Below are positions 21,435 to 35,094 of a DNA stretch of 64,000 nt, piece after piece. How positions within the stretch are numbered: position 1 is the first letter of the stretch; every line of letters starts with the position of its first letter. Made by a program: the position numbers and the translations under genes. This DNA comes from Litoreibacter roseus (lineage in GTDB: Bacteria > Pseudomonadota > Alphaproteobacteria > Rhodobacterales > Rhodobacteraceae), in NCBI RefSeq assembly GCF_009811795.1, contig NZ_BLJE01000002.1:868001-932000 (forward strand), given 5' to 3'. Below the pieces are notes generated by a model that was not told the origin of the DNA, made no database searches, and saw only the letters and a program-made list of their open reading frames with translations.

Positions 21435-23405
21435 TTACCGGGCCTTGGACAGGCTTTCGGCCAGACGCATCAGGGTGACGGCTTCGGTTCTGTAGCCAAA
21501 CGTATCGTCGCCCTTGGCGGTGTTGGCCAGTGCGATGGCGTCCTCGTATGTCCAGTCGCCTGTGTAGCTGGATCCTTGTAGAAGCTGGCCGAACCCTGCG
21601 ATCGCAGTGGCGAAGCGGACATCGGTGTTGGCATCGCTCACACCGGTCGAAATGGGTGTTTCGATCAACTGGCTCTCGCTTTCGCCGGGCGTTTTGTAGC
21701 GCAGGCGGAGAAAGCCCAGCTCGTCACTGTCTGAGGCCACGGGGTCGTCAGCGCCATAGCGAAGCGCGTCGTTCAGGATCGCGTCGGAGCCTATGGGCGT
21801 AATCTCGTAGATCGCTGTGACCGTGTGACCTGCGCCGATCTCGCCCGCGTCGACCTTGTCATTGTTGAAATCCTCACGCTTCAGGGCGCGGGTCTCATAC
21901 CCGATCAGGCGGTATTCGGCGATCTCGGCGGGGTTGAACTCTACCTGTATCTTCACGTCGGACGCGATGGGATAAAGTGCGCCCGCCAGTTGATCGACCA
22001 GCACTTTGCGGGCTTCGCTGAGCGTATCGATATAGGCCGCCTGTCCGTTGCCATTCTGGGCCAGTGTCTGCATCAGGGCGTCGTTCAGATTGCCCCGTCC
22101 AAAGCCCAGAACCGACAGGAAGGTGCCGTCGTCGCGCTTTTCCTCGATGAAGGTCTTCAGCGCCTCGTCCGAGGACAGACCGACGTTGAAATCGCCATCC
22201 GTGGCCAGAAGTACGCGGGAAATCTCGCCTTCATCCGCCATCTGTTCGGCCAGCGCATAGGCTTGTGTCAGACCTGCGGCCCCTGCGGTGGATCCGCCAG
22301 ATATCAGGCTGTTCAGGGCGGCCTCGATCTTGCCGGTTTCGCTCGCTGCAGTCGGCTCCAAAACCGTGCCTGCGCTGCCCGCATAGGTGACGATGGCGAC
22401 CTGATCCTCTGGCCGCAACTCCGGCAGCATCAGCCGGAAGGACTGGATCAGCAGTGGCAGCTTGTCCGGGCTGCTCATGGAGCCAGACGTATCAATCAGC
22501 AGGACTAGGTTCAGGGGCGGGCGATCTTCGATAGCGGGCAATTCCCCTTGGATGCCGATATGAACCAGCTGGGTCCCATCGTTCCACGGCGTGTCGGTGA
22601 CGGTGACGCTCTGCTGGAACGGCAGGTCGCCGGTGGGTGCTGCGTAATCATAGGGGAAGTAGTTGATCATCTCCTCGATCCGCACGGCCTCGGCGTTGGG
22701 CAGTTGGCCATTTTGCAGCGCGCGGCGCACCCACGCGTAGGACGCAGTGTCCACATCGATGGAAAAGGTCGATACCGGCTCTTCGCTGGTGATCTTGACT
22801 GCGTTCGGGGTCTCGTTTGCAAAGCGGTCCCGATCCTCGATGATTTCGGGGTACGGATCCGGCACGGGAAGGATCCTGATCTCCTGACTGCCTTGCAGCA
22901 TGCTGGTGGAGGCAGAGGGGTTCACGACCCTGCGGCCCGGACGCGAAACTTCGGCGGGCGCAAACTCTTCCACGATCTCTTCGAGTATCATCGGTGCCTC
23001 TAAGGGGGAGGCCAGAGGCGCGTCCTGCAAAACGTCCTGATCCGCGGAGGGCTGTGCCTCTTTCGCGGTGATCATTTCGGGCGCGGCGGGTTCCACTTGG
23101 GGGGCCAGAACCGTGGTTTGTGGTCCGGGCTGGTTTTGCACAAAGACAAAGCCCACGCCCAAGACGACGAGGGAAGAGGTGGTCAGAAGAAGCGGTTTCA
23201 GATTTCGGGTGGCAAACATGTCTCTCAGTCCTTTCAGAATGTTGGACCTTTCCGGTCCTGTATCTGTGGGACGTGCGCCGGGCGCCGATCCTTGGAGGCT
23301 TTCGAAATTTTTTTCCGCCACGCGCAAGGCCGCGTCGCGGGCGGCGTCGCTGGCGGGGGGTGGCGTGCCAAGGGCCGCGCGCAGTTTATCAAGCTCATCG
23401 GTCAT
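21435..23405 (-). CDS. Membrane-anchored von Willebrand factor A protein (YfbK-like)
   Basis: Of 656 residues, 1-68 are cytoplasmic and acidic, then a membrane helix (about 70-90), a Pro/Glu-rich linker, and a periplasmic part. The conserved N-terminal YfbK region contains EEMINYFPYDY. The VWA domain has the metal-binding DTSGSMS (MIDAS) motif near 305, and a C-terminal DUF3520-like domain follows. Its start abuts the stop of the ECF sigma gene (TGAATG). The topology (short cytoplasmic head, one helix, large outer domain) is that of many membrane anti-sigma factors, which suggests that it controls the sigma factor; that is inference. Confidence 0.88.
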   Translation of the reverse strand: MTDELDKLRAALGTPPPASDAARDAALRVAEKNFESLQGSAPGARPTDTGPERSNILKGLRDMFATRNLKPLLLTTSSLVVLGVGFVFVQNQPGPQTTVLAPQVEPAAPEMITAKEAQPSADQDVLQDAPLASPLEAPMILEEIVEEFAPAEVSRPGRRVVNPSASTSMLQGSQEIRILPVPDPYPEIIEDRDRFANETPNAVKITSEEPVSTFSIDVDTASYAWVRRALQNGQLPNAEAVRIEEMINYFPYDYAAPTGDLPFQQSVTVTDTPWNDGTQLVHIGIQGELPAIEDRPPLNLVLLIDTSGSMSSPDKLPLLIQSFRLMLPELRPEDQVAIVTYAGSAGTVLEPTAASETGKIEAALNSLISGGSTAGAAGLTQAYALAEQMADEGEISRVLLATDGDFNVGLSSDEALKTFIEEKRDDGTFLSVLGFGRGNLNDALMQTLAQNGNGQAAYIDTLSEARKVLVDQLAGALYPIASDVKIQVEFNPAEIAEYRLIGYETRALKREDFNNDKVDAGEIGAGHTVTAIYEITPIGSDAILNDALRYGADDPVASDSDELGFLRLRYKTPGESESQLIETPISTGVSDANTDVRFATAIAGFGQLLQGSSYTGDWTYEDAIALANTAKGDDTFGYRTEAVTLMRLAESLSKAR

Positions 23406-23948
23406 TCAGATGGCCTCCTTTTCGGCCATATCGCGCAGGTGGCGTTTCACTTCGGACATCCGCCACGCGATGGTTCCTTCGCTGAGGCCCATCACCTCGG
23501 CGGTTTCTTTCTGTGTCAGGTCTTCGCCAAGGGTCAGCGCGACCGTCTCGCGCAACTCCTGAGGCAGGGCGCGCATGGCCGTGCCAAGCCAGTCCTGTGC
23601 GGCTGCCGCGTCCTCATCCTCGGCGGCGCGGCGCTGGTAGTCTTCGGCCCAGCCCTCGCTGGCTTTGGCGTGGCTCTGGGCCTTGCGCGCGCGGTCCGTG
23701 GCGGCGTTCATGGTCACCCGGTAGGCCCATGTGGTGAACTTGGCCTCACCCCGGTAGTTGCGCAGTTTCTGGGGCAGGGCGGCCAAAATGTCATGTGCCA
23801 GATCTTCGGCATCGTGCTGGGTGCCGGTCAAGCGCCACGCAAACCTGTAGATACGATCATAGTGACGGCGAATGAGGAGGTCGAATGCCTCCCTGTCGCC
23901 TGCGGCGGCCGCTTGGGCCAAAGCCTCGTCACTGGTTTTCATGCGCAT
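23406..23948 (-). CDS. ECF-type RNA polymerase sigma factor
   Basis: About 180 residues. Sigma region 2 is FDLLIRRHYDRIYRFAWRL followed by DAEDLAHDIL. Region 4 is LPQELRETVALTLGEDLTQKETAEVMGLSEGTIAWRMSEVKRHL. The start was set at M11 of the long frame (23948); M13 (23942) is equally possible. Co-transcription with the VWA protein suggests an envelope-stress regulon. No typical GGAAC-type target promoter was seen upstream. Confidence 0.88.
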   Translation of the reverse strand: MRMKTSDEALAQAAAAGDREAFDLLIRRHYDRIYRFAWRLTGTQHDAEDLAHDILAALPQKLRNYRGEAKFTTWAYRVTMNAATDRARKAQSHAKASEGWAEDYQRRAAEDEDAAAAQDWLGTAMRALPQELRETVALTLGEDLTQKETAEVMGLSEGTIAWRMSEVKRHLRDMAEKEAI

Positions 23949-24001
23949 AGTGATGGTAGGACGCACGGGGCGGGTCAATCCTTGGAAAGTTTTTTGAAAA
24001 A

Positions 24002-25418: not shown

Positions 25419-25799
25419 TCATAGCTTTCAACAATTTGGTAAATGTTCAAATCGCAATAGATCAGCGATACCTTTGTGATTCAAGAAGCCTCGTATCTTT
25501 AGTCGGCATTGGGTCTGGCTGCTTTGTATATCAACGGCAGCAAAGTCCAGCAAAACAGACGTAAAGTCAGCTGCGCGCGGCGCTCTTTGACACATTTGCG
25601 CAGGTAGGCGCGGTGTTTGGCCGGGCCACGGTTACTTCGCTGGTGCCCTTAACTGACATCACAGTTCCGTTTTTCGCCGTGGCGGGGTAGTTCGGTCATG
25701 GAGCTGCCCATTTTCAATGCTATGGTACGCTCAAGTCTTCACATTTCCGCGAGAGCGCTTATGTGAATGATAGTAACATTGGCGAAGGAAGAGATATAG
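25419..25799. other. 381-bp gap without a supported gene; promoter region of the AAA+ operon
   Basis: No frame here has a ribosome site and normal codon use. The left half is AT-rich and may carry the promoter of the secreted protein. The middle (25560-25690) has GC-rich scraps resembling decayed coding DNA. The last 65 bp contain an inverted repeat (25738-25767) and the ribosome site GGAAGAGAT of the first gene of the AAA+ operon. Confidence 0.6.
25738..25767 (+). promoter_or_regulatory. Inverted repeat upstream of the AAA+ operon
   Basis: TTCACAT and ATGTGAA are perfect 7-bp arms 16 bp apart, with short GCG/CGC arms inside. The element ends 32 bp before the first start codon. It is either an operator for an unknown dimeric regulator or an RNA hairpin in the leader. 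Confidence 0.5.
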
Positions 25800-26876
25800 A
25801 TGGCAGATTTTGATGCTCAGGTCCGGGAAAGTCAGGCGCAGGTCGAAGCCGCGCAGAAGCAGATTATCGAGGTAACGAGCCGGATCGAGACGGCGCGGTC
25901 CAAGCTGAAAAGCGGTGACGACATCACCATCGATATCGAGAACGCTTCGCTGGACGACGTACACACCCATACGGAGCTGATGAATGCCAACATCGCTGAG
26001 TTAATCATGGGGCTGGACGATGTCACGTCCGGGTTCTCCGAAGACTTCTCTGCCATGCGGGACAAGACGGGCTGGGAAAGCTTCGTCGGTATGTTCGCGC
26101 CCGCCAAGTCCGAATCCATGCGGCAGGAACGGATGCGCACGGCGTCGATTGATGACAAGCTGCAGGACCTGATCTCGAAATCCGACACAATTACCCAGCT
26201 TCTGCAAAGCCAATTGAATACGCTGAACGAGCAGAAGGCTAAGGTGGAAACGAACCTGACCGCCACGCTCGACGAGCGCGAAATGGTCGTGGGCGAACTG
26301 GAAGCTTTGCGCGCCGATATTCTGGCGATGGATCCCAAGATGATCGAGTTGGAAAACAAGATCAGCGTCGAACAGGATGCCGCCGCCCGTACGCGGCTGG
26401 AAACCGAACTGGCCGATCTGAATAAACGCTACAATGAGATGGTGCAGCAGGAACAGGTGAAGCTGGCAAACTCCCAGACGCTGGAGCGCTATATCGAGAA
26501 GGGCAAGACCTGGGTTGATTCCCTGCAAAACCAGGCGGCGACGCAGATGGTTCTGATCAACAAGCTGGAAACGGATACCAAACAGCGGGTCGTTCTCTAT
26601 GACGCGCTGACCAAGTCTTTGAAAACCGCGCAACAACAGGACGTGGCCCACCGCATAAATGAGATCGGCGTGGAAACGGACAAAGAAGCGCAGGCTGCGA
26701 TGGCCGGGATCGGTGCCGCGACCAACAACCGGATGGCCGATATGCTGGAGGCCCATGAGGACCAGATGATCTTTGCCCGCAAGGTGCTGGAACAGAAGGC
26801 AAAGGCTGATGAGCGCTTCGCCCGCCGGTTCCAAGCCGTGGTCGATAAGCACGACAAGAACCTGTACGGCGCGTGA
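25800..26876 (+). CDS. TelA-like coiled-coil protein, first gene of the AAA+ operon
   Basis: The 358-residue product has no signal peptide or membrane helix and is mostly predicted coiled coil (residues 5-45, 125-235, 240-345). The central pattern (DDVTSGFSEDF, then long helices with LEALRADIL, LERYIEKGKTWVDSLQ and VLINKLETDT) recalls the TelA/KlaA toxic-anion-resistance family, whose real function is unknown. The similarity is by pattern only. It leads an eight-gene operon and is probably the structural or adaptor partner of the AAA+ ATPase encoded at 28255. Confidence 0.7.
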   Translation: MADFDAQVRESQAQVEAAQKQIIEVTSRIETARSKLKSGDDITIDIENASLDDVHTHTELMNANIAELIMGLDDVTSGFSEDFSAMRDKTGWESFVGMFAPAKSESMRQERMRTASIDDKLQDLISKSDTITQLLQSQLNTLNEQKAKVETNLTATLDEREMVVGELEALRADILAMDPKMIELENKISVEQDAAARTRLETELADLNKRYNEMVQQEQVKLANSQTLERYIEKGKTWVDSLQNQAATQMVLINKLETDTKQRVVLYDALTKSLKTAQQQDVAHRINEIGVETDKEAQAAMAGIGAATNNRMADMLEAHEDQMIFARKVLEQKAKADERFARRFQAVVDKHDKNLYGA

Positions 26877-27076
26877 GCGGTCTTTCCAAATCTCTGATCG
26901 GTTTGGTGGTTGGGGTTGCTTGGTTGACTGTCGTTTACACTCTCGACCTTGGATGGACAGCTTATGTGCCGGGTGGACTGCTGGTGTGCATCTGCTTGAT
27001 TGCAGGCGCCGTATGGACGTCTGATGCGGATCGTTCCGGCTTAGGGAAGTTGGGTGACGGGAGCGGGAGCGGTTGA
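26873..27076 (+). CDS. Small membrane protein of the AAA+ operon (67 residues)
   Basis: Starts with GTG inside the stop of the coiled-coil gene (GTGA overlap). Two hydrophobic helices (about 6-24 and 31-49) are joined by a short loop with W and Y; the C-terminus is short and Gly/Ser-rich. It resembles small two-helix integral proteins that anchor a partner. No family is recognised. Coupled translation and position argue that it is real. Confidence 0.65.
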   Translation: MSGLSKSLIGLVVGVAWLTVVYTLDLGWTAYVPGGLLVCICLIAGAVWTSDADRSGLGKLGDGSGSG

Positions 27077-28203
27077 CGCAGGACATTGACCTCACCATTG
27101 ATCACGCGGGTCTAACGGACAACCTCGCGGCGCGGCGGTATTTTGCGAAGTTCGAGCGCATCACTGACCATCTGGCGCGGGTGGCGGGCGAGATGGAGCG
27201 GGAGCGGACGTTCTCGAAGACCGATGTGTCCATCGTGTCGAATTACGTCCAGCGGATCGCGGCGACGTTTCGGGCATTGAGCCAGAAGTATCTGCTGACA
27301 GGGCGCGATACAGGTGTGTTCTTTGGCTCGCTCAACATCGACCGGGTTGAGTCCGGTTTTCCGGTGTTCGGCGAGTTGATGACGATGGCCAATGATGCAC
27401 AGCAGGCGGGACGGCATCTGGACGGGATGCGGTCGCAGGCTGAGTTGAAAGACGAAATGATCCGTCAGATTGTCGGCGATCTGACGATCCCGACAAAGTT
27501 GCAATATGCCATGTCCCAGCGGCTCTATTATGAAGAGCTTGCGCGGGGGGACCTGTTCTGGGCCCACAACGATCCGCAGGCAATCTGGCAAGGAAATTCA
27601 AATGGCAGGAAACGTTATCTGATCCATTGGGCGGTCTATGACAGCCGCCAGAATGTGCCGACAATCTACCTGATGGAGGTGGAGGATTCAGGCGATATAT
27701 CTCTGCCCAAGGACGACCGGCGCTGGCCCGCCGCGCAGGCTCATCTGGCAGCGCAATCGACAGCGGGCTTGAAGTTGTTGACCATCGCGCAAGGGTTTGA
27801 TCGGGATTTCGACGATCTGCACCCAAAGCGGCTGCGGCGCGTGCATGTGGGCCCGATGTATTCCAGCGCATTCACGCTGCAATCGGGTCCCATTCGCGAG
27901 GTTCTGGAAGAGGCGCAAGCCGCCCCGGGCGAAGACTGGGCGCTGGCCTGGACCATCGAGGAGTTATGGTCCGAGCGGGTTGAGTTGGAGAAAAAGGGCT
28001 GGTTCGGTCAAGTGGAGCGCGAGATTTTCCGGCTGGATCCCTTTGCGGGACGCGGTGCGGAGACCGGTGCGACCTCCATCGAGCGGGCGATCATCTTGCC
28101 GCAAAAACCGTTTCAGGTGCTGGCGGAACGGCAGCCTCAGGGCTTTGCCAGTGTGCGCAAATTCGTAGTCAGCCCGGCGGGTCGCGTCGTCGCATATAAA
28201 TAG
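27073..28203 (+). CDS. Uncharacterised 376-residue protein of the AAA+ operon
   Basis: Begins with TTG, overlapping the previous stop (TTGA). The first 150 residues look helical (ARRYFAKFERITDHLARVAGEMERER...). From about 165 a mixed alpha/beta part follows, with NGRKRYLIHWAVYDSRQNVPTIYLMEVEDSG and a GPMYSSAFTLQSGPIREVLEEA region. There is no catalytic motif, signal peptide or membrane segment. I recognise no named family with certainty. Its place just before the ATPase suggests a substrate or partner of it. Confidence 0.75.
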   Translation: MTQDIDLTIDHAGLTDNLAARRYFAKFERITDHLARVAGEMERERTFSKTDVSIVSNYVQRIAATFRALSQKYLLTGRDTGVFFGSLNIDRVESGFPVFGELMTMANDAQQAGRHLDGMRSQAELKDEMIRQIVGDLTIPTKLQYAMSQRLYYEELARGDLFWAHNDPQAIWQGNSNGRKRYLIHWAVYDSRQNVPTIYLMEVEDSGDISLPKDDRRWPAAQAHLAAQSTAGLKLLTIAQGFDRDFDDLHPKRLRRVHVGPMYSSAFTLQSGPIREVLEEAQAAPGEDWALAWTIEELWSERVELEKKGWFGQVEREIFRLDPFAGRGAETGATSIERAIILPQKPFQVLAERQPQGFASVRKFVVSPAGRVVAYK

Positions 28204-28254
28204 CACCAGCTCGAGATTTGATATGATGACAGAGTTAACATGTGAAGGACTGAA

Positions 28255-30186
28255 ATGAGCCAATCTGCCGATCTGATGGACCTGACCGAGGAAGATATCC
28301 GTAAGCACTATCCGGCGGCTCTGTCGATGCTGCAGGGGCTGGATCACACGCCGCGTTTGGCCAAGGCGAAAGAAGCGCCTGTGGCCGAGCGTTCTGCGGG
28401 TTTGGGGACGCGGCGCCGGTTTCGGTCAACCACGCCCGGTCTGGTGACGCGCTCGACCGCGCGGCCCGAGGGTGTGCGGTTGGTCGAGCAGGTCGAGGGG
28501 ATCGGCGAGGATGAACTGCCATCGCCCCTGCAAGCTACGGTGCTGCACAAGCTGCGCCGATCTTTGGCGATTGCGCTGGCGACGGGGGAGGCGTTTTCTG
28601 AGGCCACGGGTCTGGCCGAGTTGAAGCGCGGCAATCTGGAAGGGCGGCTTTCCGACGACAAAAAGGCCGCGTTCACGGAACTGCTGGCCGCCGAGGCGCT
28701 TGCCACGCTTTACACTTTTGCCAACGCCACCTCTTACCTGCTGGCGCCGTCCCTGACCGAGGTCACGGTCGAGATCGGGGCCGTCGAGGAAGTGCTGACA
28801 GACAATGCACAGTTGGCCTTGCATGGGGCGCTGTGGGAACTGGATCAGGACGTCGCGTTGTTCGCTAATGAGGACACCAAACTGGTGGCGACGGTTGCGG
28901 CCTTCGCGGAGCAGTTGATGGAAAAGGTCGCCCTGCGCGCGCAAACCGCGCCGCGGCTGGTGCCGTTTACCGGCGCGTCCTACCACGTGGAAGCGGACGG
29001 TCTGACGATCAATGGGTTTACGCCCGCGCGGGCGGCCAAGGGCTCCAAACTCACGATGACGTTCAAGAAGCCGAACGAGGTCGTGGGCAACCACATTGCC
29101 AAGTATCAGGCGATGAAGCTGTCCAAGATGCTGATGGCCTATGATTTTGAGCGCAAGCTAAATCCGTTTGCGGAGCTTGGCGGCTTCATCTTTACCTTCA
29201 TGGGGGACGGTGCGCCCGGTACGGGTAAAACGACGCTGATCCAGATGATGGCGGGGCTGATCTCGGGCTATTGCGAGACAGCGGGCTATGCGTTTCGTTA
29301 TCAAAACCTAAGCACGGACAATATCGACAGTTATCAGGGTAAATCGGGTCAAAACGCGAAGGCTTTTATCAACAACGTGATTGATCCGAACGTGATCGGG
29401 TTCGGCACGATTGATGACATCGACCAGTTGGCGGGCAAGCGGGGCGACCGGCAGTCGAGCGCGGGTCAGCTTGAGATCACGGCGGTCCTGATGGAAAGCT
29501 TTGCGGGCGCAAACACGGTCGTACGCGGCAATTGCACCTTTGGCATGTTCTCGAACTACCCCGAAAATGTGGACGACGCGCTGCGGCAGCGGGCGGGTGC
29601 ACGCTTCCTGGTGGATGGACCCCAGACGCGGGAGGATTACATCGACATTCTGCATTTGCTGATGGGCAAGAATCACGACATCCCCGTGGGCGACCATGAT
29701 CTGTTCGCCGCGCAGGAAATCAAGAAAGCCGTGGCTGCGTCGTTCGACAGCCACTCCAAACCGCACGAGGCGGGTCTGCTGGAAGTGTTTGACCGGGTGA
29801 ACAGCAAGATCGGCGGGTTGGACACGATTGCGAAGCTTGGTACCTACCTGAAGGGCATTCAAGAGGCCGACCCACGTTTCACGGGGCGCGCGATCAAGAA
29901 CATCACGGATGCGGTTAAAGTGCGCGCGATGGATTTTGAACTGCCCGATGAATGGATGGATGAGCCAGAGTTGTTCCTGTTCAAATCCTATGACGATAAG
30001 AAGGCGATGATCGAAGAGATGCGCCAGCCGATTACAGTCGAGATGGTCATTCAGGAAATCAACCGCTACGCCGACAGCGAATTCCGCTACGCGGACAAAT
30101 CGGACGAGGTCGCCATCGAAAATATGGTGCGTGACTACGGCCGCACCGAAGAGGCCAAGCGGCGGTATCTGGAGAGCAAGGGGTGA
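28255..30186 (+). CDS. AAA+ ATPase of the uncharacterised operon
   Basis: The 643-residue protein has a helical N-terminal region (1-300) without a known domain, then a AAA+ module. Walker A is GAPGTGKTT (319-327). The Walker B position reads GFGTIDDIDQLAGKRGDR (382-399), where classic AAA proteins have IDEID, so the usual catalytic Glu is Asp388. Sensor 1 is in FGMFSNYPENVDD (Asn434), and arginine-finger candidates lie in LRQRAGARF (443-451). A helical lid follows to about 560. No protease or nuclease domain is present. It starts after GAAGGACT and lies 51 bp from the upstream gene. Confidence 0.88.
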   Translation: MSQSADLMDLTEEDIRKHYPAALSMLQGLDHTPRLAKAKEAPVAERSAGLGTRRRFRSTTPGLVTRSTARPEGVRLVEQVEGIGEDELPSPLQATVLHKLRRSLAIALATGEAFSEATGLAELKRGNLEGRLSDDKKAAFTELLAAEALATLYTFANATSYLLAPSLTEVTVEIGAVEEVLTDNAQLALHGALWELDQDVALFANEDTKLVATVAAFAEQLMEKVALRAQTAPRLVPFTGASYHVEADGLTINGFTPARAAKGSKLTMTFKKPNEVVGNHIAKYQAMKLSKMLMAYDFERKLNPFAELGGFIFTFMGDGAPGTGKTTLIQMMAGLISGYCETAGYAFRYQNLSTDNIDSYQGKSGQNAKAFINNVIDPNVIGFGTIDDIDQLAGKRGDRQSSAGQLEITAVLMESFAGANTVVRGNCTFGMFSNYPENVDDALRQRAGARFLVDGPQTREDYIDILHLLMGKNHDIPVGDHDLFAAQEIKKAVAASFDSHSKPHEAGLLEVFDRVNSKIGGLDTIAKLGTYLKGIQEADPRFTGRAIKNITDAVKVRAMDFELPDEWMDEPELFLFKSYDDKKAMIEEMRQPITVEMVIQEINRYADSEFRYADKSDEVAIENMVRDYGRTEEAKRRYLESKG

Positions 30187-30413
30187 AGATTGCCCTTATC
30201 ATATCAGTGTTTTTTGCGCCCTTTGTGGTGGCGTGGGGCGTGACGGGCTCGGTCTGCGGGTTCGCCAAGCCAAGCGCTTTACAATGCTATGAGGCGGGCG
30301 ATGGCTACTGGAACCTGTTTTTCAGTTACCTCATCATGTTCTCTATCGCGATCTGGGTCGGCGGCGGGCTTGCCTATCTCCTGATCCGTCTGCGCAGGGC
30401 AGATGCCCCATGA
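30183..30413 (+). CDS. Small membrane protein of the AAA+ operon (76 residues)
   Basis: GTG start overlapping the ATPase stop (GTGA). Two membrane helices (about 3-20 and 46-69) flank a loop with two cysteines (SVCGFAKPSALQCYEAG), which would face the periplasm if the Arg-rich C-terminus (RLRRAD) is cytoplasmic; a disulfide there is possible. No family is recognised. Confidence 0.65.
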   Translation: MKIALIISVFFAPFVVAWGVTGSVCGFAKPSALQCYEAGDGYWNLFFSYLIMFSIAIWVGGGLAYLLIRLRRADAP

Positions 30414-31831
30414 TGCGGTTGATCGAAAAGGGGTTGATGTATGGCAACCTCTACCATGTCTCGAGCCCCGCTTTGGTGGCGCGGTACAATCGTGCGCTGG
30501 AGCGGTTGTCTGGCAAGCAGACGGCGCTGACAGATTTTCACATCGACCTGTCGGGGTACGCACCCGAGATTGGCGTGGAACTGGACGATCCCCTTTACCT
30601 GAACCCCAACGGGTGTAACCGGCAGTTCATTCTGCTGTCGACTGAACAAAAGACGGCCCCGCTGCTGGAGTCGAAGTTTTCAACGTCCCGCGGGATCTTG
30701 CGACGGTTCATCGAGGAAAACGAGGCGCAACTTTTTGCGCTGACCGCGCGGGATGCGGTGGCGGGCGAGTTGGTCAACTCGGTTTACAGTGTGAACAGCG
30801 CTGCGGACCTCTTTGACATGCGGCGGGTCACCATCGAGGCTGATACGACCGGAGGCCATGTGGCCGAGGCGGCAAAGCTGAGCGATATGATCGAGGAATT
30901 CCGCACGCGCGATGATGCGTGGTGGGATGATGTCCTGATCGCTGAGATGATCACGCTGGCCAAGACGACGGGCGACGTGACACGTGCACCGATCCGCCTG
31001 TCTAAGGACAGCTACGATCAGGAGAATTTCTGGACCGCGCATTTCGGCGGGCTTTACGTGTTCCGCTCGGTCGATCATCCGGCCGCGATCACGGTCGGTC
31101 CGAAAGAGGATCTGGGCGAGCTGCCGATCAACTTCACCATGAGCTTTTCGGAGCGCAATCATATCGCCACGTTTCTGGCGATGAACGACCTGGTCGAGCC
31201 GATTGTGAAAGCCAAGGGCATCAACGCGGCGGCGATCCTGAGACAGAAGCTGGATTTCATGATCGTGGACGTGGCAGCCAGTGCGGGCATCAATCTGACT
31301 GGCTTGCGGCGCTCTGATCTGCGTGGTCTGGCGCGGCGTTATGCTGCGGAACTGCCCGAAGAGTTCCGCGTGCTCAACGAACTGCTGCGCTGGGCTGAGG
31401 GCGGCGGGCCGTGGCCACGTATTGCCAGCGGTCATCCGGCGTATTTCTACACGCTGCGCGCCAAGCCGCATAAGGACAGGGATCTCATCAATATGCTGCT
31501 GGCCGAACTGTGCCCGTTGGATGTGCGTCAGCTGTTCATCTGCCACAAACAGCTATTCTACGACAGCTACGCCACGTGGCCGGACGAGAAGAAGACCTAT
31601 GTGGCTGATTTCCTTGCGCGCGAATATCAGGCGGACAAAGCAGGCGCGCGTGCGGCCCTTTTCGGGGCAGATGCGCCGCTGAGCGAGCCTGAGAACGAGG
31701 AACTCGGTATCGTGGCGCAGGTCGGGCCGTGGGGACGCATTTCGATCTCACGCGACGACGGTGATGATGACGAAGATGACAAAAGACGGCGGAAGGGCCG
31801 CAAGAAGAAGCGGCGGAGGGACGACGATTGA
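30410..31831 (+). CDS. Uncharacterised 473-residue protein (DUF6638-like)
   Basis: The protein starts MMRLIEKGLMYGNL and contains the segment LYLNPNGCNRQFILLS near residue 64. I recall this as the uncharacterised family DUF6638 of Rhodobacterales, without being able to check. It is soluble, alpha/beta, with no recognisable catalytic motif. The last 25 residues are an acidic run (DDGDDDEDD), a basic run (KRRRKGRKKKRRR) and DDD, a charged tail suited to binding nucleic acid, lipid or a partner. Its ATG overlaps the stop of the preceding small membrane gene. Confidence 0.8.
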   Translation: MMRLIEKGLMYGNLYHVSSPALVARYNRALERLSGKQTALTDFHIDLSGYAPEIGVELDDPLYLNPNGCNRQFILLSTEQKTAPLLESKFSTSRGILRRFIEENEAQLFALTARDAVAGELVNSVYSVNSAADLFDMRRVTIEADTTGGHVAEAAKLSDMIEEFRTRDDAWWDDVLIAEMITLAKTTGDVTRAPIRLSKDSYDQENFWTAHFGGLYVFRSVDHPAAITVGPKEDLGELPINFTMSFSERNHIATFLAMNDLVEPIVKAKGINAAAILRQKLDFMIVDVAASAGINLTGLRRSDLRGLARRYAAELPEEFRVLNELLRWAEGGGPWPRIASGHPAYFYTLRAKPHKDRDLINMLLAELCPLDVRQLFICHKQLFYDSYATWPDEKKTYVADFLAREYQADKAGARAALFGADAPLSEPENEELGIVAQVGPWGRISISRDDGDDDEDDKRRRKGRKKKRRRDDD

Positions 31832-32097
31832 TACTGGGACTTATTCGCCTGAATATAGCGGCGCTGGCTTTAATGCTGATCGTTTATTTCGTGCTGTCCA
31901 TATGGTCGCGATCCGTGCGACGCAAGAAATTGGGCGAGGAATGGGACGAAGAGGTGCAAACCGGGGACCGTGCGGCCTACGTAGAAGAAGGGCTTGAGGA
32001 TTACGACCAGTCCTTGCGCCGCAAACTGATTTTAGGGGTGTTTGTCGTACCGTATCTGGTCATTGGCCTTCTGGTTTATGTGATGAACTTCCAATAG
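31828..32097 (+). CDS. Small membrane protein of the AAA+ operon (89 residues)
   Basis: TTG start overlapping the previous stop (TTGA). The helix at residues 3-23 and a second at 68-87 enclose a charged cytoplasmic loop (SRSVRRKKLGEEWDEEVQ...). This hairpin-with-charged-loop plan suits a membrane anchor for a cytosolic complex. No family is recognised with certainty. Confidence 0.68.
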   Translation: MILGLIRLNIAALALMLIVYFVLSIWSRSVRRKKLGEEWDEEVQTGDRAAYVEEGLEDYDQSLRRKLILGVFVVPYLVIGLLVYVMNFQ

Positions 32098-32106
32098 GGA
32101 ACTGCC

Positions 32107-32787
32107 ATGTTGCGTTATCTGAAATACACCTTCTGGACGGTCTTCTGGGTTCTGGTCCTCTCGTTCCTGCACTACACGCTTCCACAACGCGATATCGTGC
32201 GTATTGTCGATACTGAGGTACGGCGTGTGGACTTCGGGGAAAACTCGATCTTCTGGGCGCAGGCCGATACAGGGCAGGACAATGAAGGCGTGAACCGGGA
32301 TGTCCGCTTCATCAATGCGGTGAAAGAAAACGGTCGGATCCGCGTTTATCGCAACGAAGATACAGGCTGGGGTTGGCCGCCTTATTTCAAGCTCGATTCC
32401 TCCAACCTGCAGACGGAAGCCGCTGATCTGGTAAGCGAAAGCCGGGCCAACCCGCAATGGGTGATCCTGACCCATTATGGTTGGCGGAACGAATTTCTGT
32501 CGATCTTCCCCAATGCCGTCGGCGTGCGGGCCACAGATGATCCCAACCAGCGGCTGATCCCGTGGTTCAATATTCTGGTTCTGACCATTCTGGCGGGGCT
32601 TGCACTGGGCTTTTTCCGGATGACTCAGTGGTTCCGCCGCGAAAAGATTGATCCGATCCTCGAAGATGTGGGGGAAACGTGGGACGCGGTGGACGCGCGC
32701 GCGGACGATGCCCGGGACAATGCGCGCGGCGTCTGGGGCCGGTTCAAGGCGTGGCTTGCCACATGGCGCGGCAAGCCGCGGGTCTGA
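32107..32787 (+). CDS. DUF1523-family membrane protein
   Basis: The 226-residue protein has helix 1 at about 7-25, a periplasmic domain (HYTLPQRDIVRIVDTEVRRVDFGEN, DTGWGWPPYFKLDS), helix 2 at about 155-177, and a charged C-terminal cytoplasmic tail. This is the DUF1523 pattern, a family with no known function that I associate with alphaproteobacteria. It is the last gene of the operon, 9 bp after the 89-residue gene; its stop abuts the stop of the convergent aldehyde dehydrogenase gene. Confidence 0.85.
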   Translation: MLRYLKYTFWTVFWVLVLSFLHYTLPQRDIVRIVDTEVRRVDFGENSIFWAQADTGQDNEGVNRDVRFINAVKENGRIRVYRNEDTGWGWPPYFKLDSSNLQTEAADLVSESRANPQWVILTHYGWRNEFLSIFPNAVGVRATDDPNQRLIPWFNILVLTILAGLALGFFRMTQWFRREKIDPILEDVGETWDAVDARADDARDNARGVWGRFKAWLATWRGKPRV

Positions 32788-35094
32788 TCACTCGCCGTAA
32801 GGTACCCAGATATTTTTCACTTCTGTTGCCGCCCTGAGCAGGTCGGCGTCGGACGGTTCGTTTGTGATCCATGTGCGCTTGAGATTTCCCGTTGAGGCAG
32901 TCTCAATCTGGTTCGCCAACGGCGTTGAGGAGATGGACCAGACGGCATCCACATCATTGTGCGCCGCCAGATGAGGGGCCAGTTCCCCGTGGCTGCCAGT
33001 CAGAATGTTCACGACACCTGCGAGGACATCGGAAGTCTCAAGCACTTGCATCAGATCCGTGGCGGCCAGCGGGAAGGGCTCGCTTGCGACCATGACCGCG
33101 CGATTGCCCATCGCGATGGCCGCGGCCATGGGTTTGACGAAGCCGAGAAGCGGCGCGGCGTCATCGCAGAGCGCGCCGATCACGCCTACAGGTTCCTTCA
33201 TGGCCAAAGCGACGCCGCGGATTGGCACGCCGTGCACTTGACCGTCATATTTGTCGGCCCAAGCGGCGAAAGTGAAGAGCGCCTCCAGGCTGGCCTGCAC
33301 CTCGGCCATGCCTGATTTGCCTGTCATATTTTTCAGGCGGGCTGCGAACTCATCCTGCCGCGCAGCGAGATTTTCGGCTACGTAGTAAAGGATTTGCGCC
33401 CTGAGATGGCCGGTTGTCTTGGACCAGCCCTTCGCGCCTTGAGCGGCCTCGACCGCGTTGCGAATGTCTTTGCGGTTCGCAAGGCTGACCTCACCCAAGG
33501 CGTGACCCTTGGGACCGTAAATCATCTGGGAGTAGCCGCCATCCGGACGGGCCTGCTTGCCGCCGATATAGAGCTTGGCGGTGCGGTCAATGGGGCTGCC
33601 GGATGCGCCGTCGCCGGTGAAGGGTTTGACCTGTGCCGGGGCTTTGATCTGTTTCTTCGGCTTGGTGTAACTGGACAGCCCTTCCCATCCCCCTTCGCGC
33701 CCGAACCCGCTTTCGCGCACGCCGCCAAAGCCCGCAGCGGCATCCATGAGGTTTGTCGCGTTGATCCAGACGATGCCGGAGACGAGCTTCGGCGCGATAT
33801 CGAGCGCAAGGTTTATGTTCTCGGTCCAGACCGTCGCGGCCAGCCCGTAGCGGGTGTTGTTGGCAACCTCCACGACCTCTGCCGGGGTACGGAATGTGGT
33901 TGATACGAGAACGGGACCAAAGATCTCTTCCTGCATCAGCTTGGCAGAGGTGGTCAGACCGGTGATAAGCGTTGGCGGGTAGAAACAGCCGGCAGGTGCT
34001 GGACCTGCCTGATAGATCTCGCCATCGCTATTGTTTGCCACCAGCGCCGAGATGGTCTCAAGTTGCACCGGATCAATGATGGCCCCGATGTCGATGCACT
34101 TGTCCAGTGGGTCACCGATGCGCAACCCATCCATGCGGGCTTTGAGCTTGGCATAGAACGTCTCCGCAATGCCTTCCTGCACCAGAAGGCGGGAACCGGC
34201 GCAGCAGACCTGACCCTGATTGAACCAGATGGCATCGACCAGACCTTCGACCGCGCTGTCCAGATCGGCGTCATCGAACACGATGTAGGGAGACTTGCCG
34301 CCAAGCTCCAGCGTAAGGGATTTACCGCTGCCTGCAGTGGCTTCCCGAATGCGACGCCCGACGGAGGTTGAACCGGTGAAGGCCACCTTGTCCACGTCGG
34401 CTTCCACGATACGCTCACCCGTGGCACCGTCGCCTGTGACGATGTTGACGACACCCTTGGGCAATCCGACCTTGGCGCATATCTCGGCGAACAGCAGCGC
34501 GGTCAGGGGGGTGTATTCAGCGGGTTTCAGAACGACCGTGTTGCCCATTGCAAGCGCAGGTGCGATTTTCCATGCCAGCATCAGAAGTGGAAAATTCCAC
34601 GGGATCACTTGACCGCAAACGCCCAAGGGCGCCCGGTCTGGCAATTCGCTGGCCATTAACTGGGCAAAGCCTGCGTGATGGTAGAAATGGCGTTGGGCCA
34701 GCGGGATGTCGATGTCGCGGCTCTCGCGGATCGGTTTGCCGTTGTCGAGGGTCTCCAGAACCGCAAAGAGCCTGCTGTGTTTCTGAAGCGCGCGGGCAAT
34801 TGCATAGAGATAGCGCGCTCGCTCGAACCCGCTGAGCTTGGCCCATTTCGGTTGCGCCTTACGAGCGGCCGCGACGGCGGCGTCCACGTCTTTCTGGGTG
34901 CCTTGGCTGATTTTGGCCAAAACTTCCCCGCGGGCGGGGTTCTGCGTGTCGAATATCTTGCCCGGTTTGGTGAACGCGCCGTCAATGAAATGCCCGAACT
35001 TGCGGTTGTGCGTGTCCAGCCAGTCCATGGCGGGTCCGGCATCCTCGGGCGCGGGGCCGTAGTCCATCGTGTCGAAAATCTCTTTGACGTTCAT
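32788..35094 (-). CDS. ALDH16-type double-domain aldehyde dehydrogenase
   Basis: 768 residues. The first half (to about 485) is a complete NAD(P)-dependent aldehyde dehydrogenase: Glu263 in TLELGGKSP, catalytic Cys297 in FNQGQVCCAGS, and EEIFGPV. The second half (about 505-768) is another ALDH-like domain without a catalytic Cys or the Glu motif. This matches bacterial ALDH16 enzymes, in which the second domain is structural. The gene starts 3 bp after the deoC stop, so the two are co-transcribed; acetaldehyde or glyceraldehyde phosphate from the DeoC reaction is a natural substrate, by inference. Confidence 0.9.
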   Translation of the reverse strand: MNVKEIFDTMDYGPAPEDAGPAMDWLDTHNRKFGHFIDGAFTKPGKIFDTQNPARGEVLAKISQGTQKDVDAAVAAARKAQPKWAKLSGFERARYLYAIARALQKHSRLFAVLETLDNGKPIRESRDIDIPLAQRHFYHHAGFAQLMASELPDRAPLGVCGQVIPWNFPLLMLAWKIAPALAMGNTVVLKPAEYTPLTALLFAEICAKVGLPKGVVNIVTGDGATGERIVEADVDKVAFTGSTSVGRRIREATAGSGKSLTLELGGKSPYIVFDDADLDSAVEGLVDAIWFNQGQVCCAGSRLLVQEGIAETFYAKLKARMDGLRIGDPLDKCIDIGAIIDPVQLETISALVANNSDGEIYQAGPAPAGCFYPPTLITGLTTSAKLMQEEIFGPVLVSTTFRTPAEVVEVANNTRYGLAATVWTENINLALDIAPKLVSGIVWINATNLMDAAAGFGGVRESGFGREGGWEGLSSYTKPKKQIKAPAQVKPFTGDGASGSPIDRTAKLYIGGKQARPDGGYSQMIYGPKGHALGEVSLANRKDIRNAVEAAQGAKGWSKTTGHLRAQILYYVAENLAARQDEFAARLKNMTGKSGMAEVQASLEALFTFAAWADKYDGQVHGVPIRGVALAMKEPVGVIGALCDDAAPLLGFVKPMAAAIAMGNRAVMVASEPFPLAATDLMQVLETSDVLAGVVNILTGSHGELAPHLAAHNDVDAVWSISSTPLANQIETASTGNLKRTWITNEPSDADLLRAATEVKNIWVPYGE

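Follow-up and report, generated by a model that had tools for sequence, protein, structure and literature searches.

Classical AAA ATPases such as Vps4, FtsH/Yme1, the proteasomal Rpt proteins and TRIP13 have a Walker A motif, an arginine-finger region and an aromatic pore-loop residue. Coiled-coil proteins, AAA+ ATPases and membrane partners, with envelope stress as the presumed setting, come together in the phage shock protein (PSP) and endosomal sorting complex required for transport III (ESCRT-III) associations, and a 2024 survey of PSP partners discusses associations with AAA+ proteins; its passages on AAA+ and Vps4 neither describe the gene tetrad reported here nor name TelA or YiaA (PMC11237479). 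Proteins of the TelA/Ter type (PF05816) are helical, comprise about 350 residues and are encoded near membrane genes, while defense operons with exchangeable effectors pair an invariant core with a slot of changing content that can hold nuclease genes. The families DUF6638 (PF20343) and DUF1523 (PF07509) have no known function. DUF6638 is not mentioned in any of 5.39 million open-access papers (subscription papers lay outside the search), few of which contain DUF1523 or DUF2852, with one or two mentions apiece. Here, we describe an eight-gene operon that resembles each of these systems in part and lies in the 4.47-Mb genome of Litoreibacter roseus (Rhodobacteraceae), within positions 868,001 to 932,000 of contig NZ_BLJE01000002.1, a stretch of 64,000 nucleotides referred to below as the window.

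The operon fills positions 25800 to 32787 of the window, where eight open reading frames (ORFs), all on the plus strand and named A to H, are tiled with junctions of -4, -4, +51, -4, -4, -4, and +9 bp. This pattern, with 4-bp overlaps at five of the seven junctions, marks the genes as one translationally coupled operon, bounded after H by a convergent aldehyde dehydrogenase gene that ends at 32788. A helix scan places membrane helices in the products of B, E, G, and H and none in those of A, C, D, and F. A first-pass annotation of this DNA, made from the sequence alone, had listed eight same-strand genes here, among them an AAA+ ATPase, members of DUF6638 and DUF1523, and three two-helix membrane proteins of 67-89 residues, and in all these respects it was borne out. 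The operon is real and, judged by sequence comparison, undescribed, yet it is not the fixed eight-gene unit that the annotation took it for, since only A, C, D, and F are kept throughout and B and E sit in variable slots. Our preferred reading, to which we give a probability of about 0.5, is that the operon encodes a regulated, inner-membrane-linked AAA+ remodeling machine of the envelope or heat stress response. This reading is supported by the fixed order of A-C-D-F, the correlated distances among the four proteins, a conserved pore tyrosine in D, a promoter dyad shared with DUF2852 genes, a housekeeping-like distribution, and PspA and YiaAB genes beside one copy of the operon.

Loci were gathered via gene D and then read for the remaining operon genes, a procedure of which genes missing at contig ends are an expected artefact. 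Contig ends apart, the order A-C-D-F is fixed in 80 genome contigs, and it recurs in Rhizobiaceae (L104-L107; Sinorhizobium meliloti), in a gammaproteobacterial genome (L102) and in Vibrio. G and H follow the core in nearly all Rhodobacteraceae loci, and the Rhizobiaceae loci encode a DUF2333 membrane protein instead. The predicted idea that the gene set is kept across genera thus stood for A-C-D-F everywhere and for G and H in Rhodobacteraceae, and failed for B and E. Across 86 genomes, the four core proteins (A, C, D, and F) show correlated pairwise distances (r 0.71-0.83), and every one of 18 near-complete genomes from the window's genus has the core, in single copy. At wider sampling, D occurs in 64 of 150 Rhodobacteraceae genera; among Pseudomonadota genomes, 20 of 299 have DUF6638 and 30 of 398 have A. 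These comparisons identify A-C-D-F as a chromosomal module that is stable and largely vertically inherited wherever a genus possesses it, with A, C, and F as co-inherited, predicted cytosolic partners of D. As four genes keep their order across classes, not one or two, and no known system matched them, the earlier claim of an undescribed system is upheld, and the conserved tetrad together with its membrane partners supports the description of a multi-genus AAA+ system tied to the membrane.

The presence of the core throughout the genus and the aldehyde dehydrogenase gene that accompanies 56 of 87 long loci give the operon a housekeeping-like distribution. Together with the co-inheritance of the core, genus-wide conservation could point to a constitutive assembly factor for one envelope or metabolic complex, with no role in stress. 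However, the absence of D from 86 of the 150 Rhodobacteraceae genera sampled implies that no universal complex needs the operon, and the operator that it has in common with DUF2852 also speaks against this explanation, which we regard as rather improbable.

Several loci depart from the usual setting. In Vibrio vulnificus and Vibrio parahaemolyticus, A-C-D-F adjoins mfd on replicons of about 0.9 Mb that are labeled plasmids (L117, L119). Rhizobium leguminosarum has a reduced locus (L118:7794-10148) consisting only of a diverged A, which is short by about 20 residues after Y267, and the DUF2333 gene; it lies between tdk and fhs, the site of the full tetrad in Sinorhizobium. In about 10 of the 87 loci, the operon has as neighbors a von Willebrand-type gene (window 21435-23978, minus strand) and, upstream of that gene, a sigma-factor-like one.

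Gene D (28255-30186) encodes a 643-residue protein that matches Pfam AAA (PF00004) at 44.3 bits, with a cut-off of 21.2. Its Walker A motif reads GAPGTGKTT in the window protein, as noted at first pass, and GDGxPGTGKT across the aligned D proteins; the arginine-finger region, in the second region of homology, is NVDDALRQRAGAR. All 22 aligned sequences share Y360 and G362 in the pore loop SYQGKS, which the D profile aligns with the YVG pore loop of an i-AAA protease. D differs from the classical enzymes in its Walker B motif, which has DD instead of DE (IDDID; TIDDID and close variants) in 22 of 22 aligned sequences, so that the position of the catalytic glutamate is held by aspartate and the canonical hhhhDE pattern is absent. 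It differs as well in an N-terminal region of about 300 residues with no known domain, in lacking a protease domain, and in its operon partners, none of which is a protease. By the profile match and the remaining motifs, D is still classified as a member of the classical AAA family, and the alignment of the invariant Y360 and G362 with YVG suggests a threading unfoldase or a disassembly motor.

Gene A (25800-26876) encodes a 358-residue coiled-coil protein, which among the core proteins is conserved best and had been labeled TelA-like, a label that did not survive closer comparison. No Pfam family matched A at cut-off, and TelA was absent even at E 1; the TelA hidden Markov model (HMM) found none of 25 homologs of A at E 0.01, and an hhalign comparison of A with the TelA profile gave a probability of 0.5%, both profiles being thin, so that a very remote kinship is possible. 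Gene C fared no better against the TelA HMM (E 0.25; 10.8 bits with a cut-off of 30), and a TelA identity for either protein was rejected on these negative HMM and profile tests. A solved TelA structure was looked for and none was found. The overall look of A (helical, of TelA-like length and near membrane genes) and a short motif likeness, GWESFVG in A and WWERLLG in TelA, are all that favors a Ter/TelA-like module for resistance to toxic anions (tellurite). In addition to the missing family match, a genuine TelA is encoded away from the operon in the same genome (C2:1272955, E 6e-106), no TelA gene was found in the long operon loci, and Ter genes are absent among the operon members, which makes a tellurite module extremely improbable.

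The AlphaFold2 model of A is all-helical (predicted local distance difference test score, pLDDT, 79), with a long hairpin formed by residues 117-190 and 194-286. Its best Foldseek matches were weak (template modeling score, TM, 0.2-0.4; E about 1e-3) and led to alpha-pore toxins. This candidate identity was rejected because of the low TM, a root-mean-square deviation above 9 Å and the lack of hydrophobic character in the loop that caps the hairpin; we read the hits to these long helical proteins as generic long-helix similarity. A long hairpin in the most conserved core protein is what would be expected of a filament former, and D is a classical AAA protein with a pore tyrosine, so that A and D might be an ESCRT-III/Vps4-like pair for membrane repair, in which A would polymerize on membranes and D would disassemble the polymer. 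The PSP literature ties PspA-like coiled coils to AAA+ ATPases (PMC11237479), and one alphaproteobacterial locus carries PspA and YiaAB near the operon, past a TetR-like gene on the opposite strand (L103:6902-7915, minus strand). Yet that is the only long locus examined with PspA nearby, the Pfam profiles PspA_IM30 and Snf7 gave no match to A, the weak fold matches did not lead to ESCRT-III, and the pair leaves C and F, which are unrelated to those systems, with no role. We consider an ESCRT-like pair quite improbable.

The remaining core proteins are equally unlike described ones. Gene C (27073-28203) encodes a predicted cytosolic protein of 376 residues for which, as for A, no acceptable family was found in Pfam, NCBIfam, PHROG, or PADLOC. 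Gene F (30410-31831; 473 residues) is a clear member of DUF6638 (747.5 bits with a cut-off of 27, E 6e-225). Its structure model (pLDDT 82.5) had no Foldseek match in the PDB (best E 0.64) and none among viral models, and judged against these two sets the modeled F probably represents a new fold. The disordered tail of F carries a VGPWG motif near its end: GPWG (GPWK allowed in one search) is found in 86 of 94 homologs at a median of nine residues from the C terminus, is doubled in five of them and occurs in no other operon protein, so it is likely to be a docking motif. The possibility that C and F are relatives of one another was rejected (hhalign probability 0.1%).

The membrane proteins fall into two groups. 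Gene G (31828-32097; 89 residues, two hydrophobic helices) accompanies H in Rhodobacteraceae, and the gaps F-G and G-H are 40 bp at most in all loci. Gene H (32107-32787; 226 residues), the last gene of the operon, belongs to DUF1523 (227.6 bits with a cut-off of 23, E 9e-68) and has a segment of about 120 residues between two hydrophobic helices, the second flagged by the scan and the first read off the sequence. Gene B (26873-27076), encoding 67 residues with two helices and a glycine-rich tail, and gene E (30183-30413), encoding 76 residues with two helices, are by comparison of loci the present occupants of two variable slots, A-C and D-F. Gaps of at least 300 bp are found between D and F in 77 of 94 loci, between A and C in 29 of 92 and between C and D in 8 of 95. 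Plus-strand slot ORFs, which were called mechanically and may in some cases be false, have a membrane helix in 57 of 60 (A-C) and 90 of 114 cases (D-F). By single linkage at E 1e-3 their products form 44 clusters (A-C) and 41 clusters (D-F), some of which may be hidden relatives, as small membrane proteins diverge fast. The motif GDTLAGIxGxLAF, together with N-terminal helices, marks a recurrent D-F family (L047:12032-12751, L005:11932-12846, L057:12512-13372, and others), whose scanned members had no Pfam or PADLOC match.

The contents of the D-F slot bear on the strongest rival explanation, a modular conflict (anti-phage or anti-element) system in which A-C-D-F would sense or control, and the slot would carry exchangeable effectors that damage the membrane or RNA and DNA. 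Soluble occupants that are clearly distinct genes include an Mrr type IV nuclease, a PDC-S31 (DUF2971) protein, and a PIN-like protein, and further ones show weak or motif-level likeness to HEPN; in Rhizobiaceae, the slot holds a DUF559-like gene. In a single genus, where D is 79-86% identical, the D-F gap ranges from 223 bp in the window to 2104 bp (L016), and D gave a weak partial match to TRIP13 in a PADLOC scan (E 1e-5), in which A returned coiled-coil noise only and B, C, and E-H nothing. Unlike the cores of defense operons, however, this core is genus-wide, single-copy and vertically inherited, its chromosomal site is often identical, no defense model matched it, its distribution is neither patchy nor mobile, and no phage match was found. 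The slot proteins are mostly small membrane proteins with no toxic domain, and in two genomes (L102, L103) the slot is empty, with D and F overlapping. The defense role suggested at first pass therefore finds no support for the core, some slot genes being defense-like all the same, and we think a conflict system unlikely. A more novel reading, tentative and less likely than not, is a new kind of bacterial stress machine: A-C-D-F would form an AAA+ unfoldase-scaffold complex, one of its proteins having a new fold, and would swap membrane adaptors or effectors like cassettes at a fixed slot, so that one engine would meet varied local threats.

The regulation of the operon offers indirect support for the envelope or stress role that had been proposed. 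An operator-like dyad of 19 bp, ATGTGA-N7-TAACAT, lies on the plus strand at 25761-25779, 39 nt upstream of gene A. Its general form, ATGTNA-N7-TNACAT, is found upstream of A exactly in 34 of 93 loci and with at most one mismatch in 49 of 93, where mononucleotide shuffles led to an expectation of 0 and 0.5 (with one mismatch), respectively; the loci are partly related and the counts are hence not independent events, and the dyad is credible nevertheless because it has a second target. In a pattern search of genomes, the window genome had only seven exact sites, one of which shares the half-sites of the operon and lies 27 nt before a DUF2852 gene. Sixteen Rhodobacteraceae genomes have the dyad before DUF2852: the window genome, all seven of its operon-bearing relatives, and eight genomes that lack the operon. 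In the relatives and the operon-less genomes it is usually paired at 58-59 bp, and reversed control patterns had no match in any genome. Such pairs were seen at the DUF2852 promoters of L205, L206, L207, L208, L209, L214, L215, L224, L227, L228, and L229. In each of these seven relatives, the two dyads enclose a CTTG-N17/18-CCCATCT-like core that, by eye, reads as RpoH-type, an arrangement that suggests cooperative repression of a heat-shock-type promoter; at the operon, too, a repressor would fit, since the dyad overlaps the presumed core promoter.

Because the dyad is common to the operon and the DUF2852 genes, its sites (window 25761-25779; L198:5026-5050) probably define a small Rhodobacteraceae regulon consisting of the operon A-H and DUF2852, which is probably a stress regulon. 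Since the dyad is also kept before DUF2852 in genomes without the operon, the DUF2852 regulon is probably the older one, which the operon joined later. DUF2852 is lowered in a Brucella envelope mutant (PMC6377625) and induced under microoxia in Bradyrhizobium (PMC6515984), neither of which proves a role in stress. In single genomes, extra dyads lie near the starts of a DUF4112-like and a nitroreductase-like gene (L203:1501-1519 and L219:1501-1519), which are possible further members. Control by CenR was rejected, as the CenR motif of Rhodobacter sphaeroides, TGA-N8-TGA, differs from it (PMC9275681), a CRP-like dyad with an N6 spacer was not enriched upstream of A, nor were simple patterns of the RpoE, CtrA, LexA, and Irr types, and a sigma-70 consensus scan returned as many sites as shuffled sequences.

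Sequence comparison alone establishes the operon, the conserved tetrad, its membrane partners, the variable slots, and the shared operator; how these parts would work together in a remodeling machine can be proposed as follows. A putative regulator would hold the promoter until envelope or protein-folding stress occurs. Gene A would then provide an elongated coiled-coil scaffold, and G and H, or DUF2333 in Rhizobiaceae, would tie the complex to the inner membrane, where the stretch of H that separates its two helices may act as an envelope sensor. Clients would be selected or held by C and F, with the VGPWG tail of F docking on a partner, perhaps D, and D would thread clients through its pore, thereby unfolding them or dismantling complexes. 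The occupants of both variable slots could be interchangeable membrane adaptors or clients.

Several observations weigh against this remodeling machine. The Vibrio and Rhizobiaceae loci are without G and H, and the membrane attachment of the core is consequently not universal. The Rhizobiaceae and gammaproteobacterial genomes tested showed no dyad close to the operon, which makes dyad-based regulation a Rhodobacteraceae feature. The RpoH reading of the DUF2852 promoter comes from inspection by eye, the invariant DD of the Walker B motif may slow hydrolysis by D, and those slot genes between D and F that are nuclease-like are a better fit to conflict. On balance, an AAA+ stress machine is the likeliest reading of the operon, with a real chance that it is more than that.

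The stress machine proposed here would bring together four orphan families (A and C, which have no Pfam entry, DUF6638, and DUF1523) and DUF2852 in one testable hypothesis. The operator provides a handle for finding both the regulator and the stress that induces the operon. The slot between D and F, which gains different genes beside fixed neighbors, may serve as a natural experiment in the retargeting of a conserved machine. The proposed AAA+ machine would span Rhodobacteraceae, Rhizobiaceae, and Vibrio, and among its hosts is Sinorhizobium meliloti (strain Ak57).

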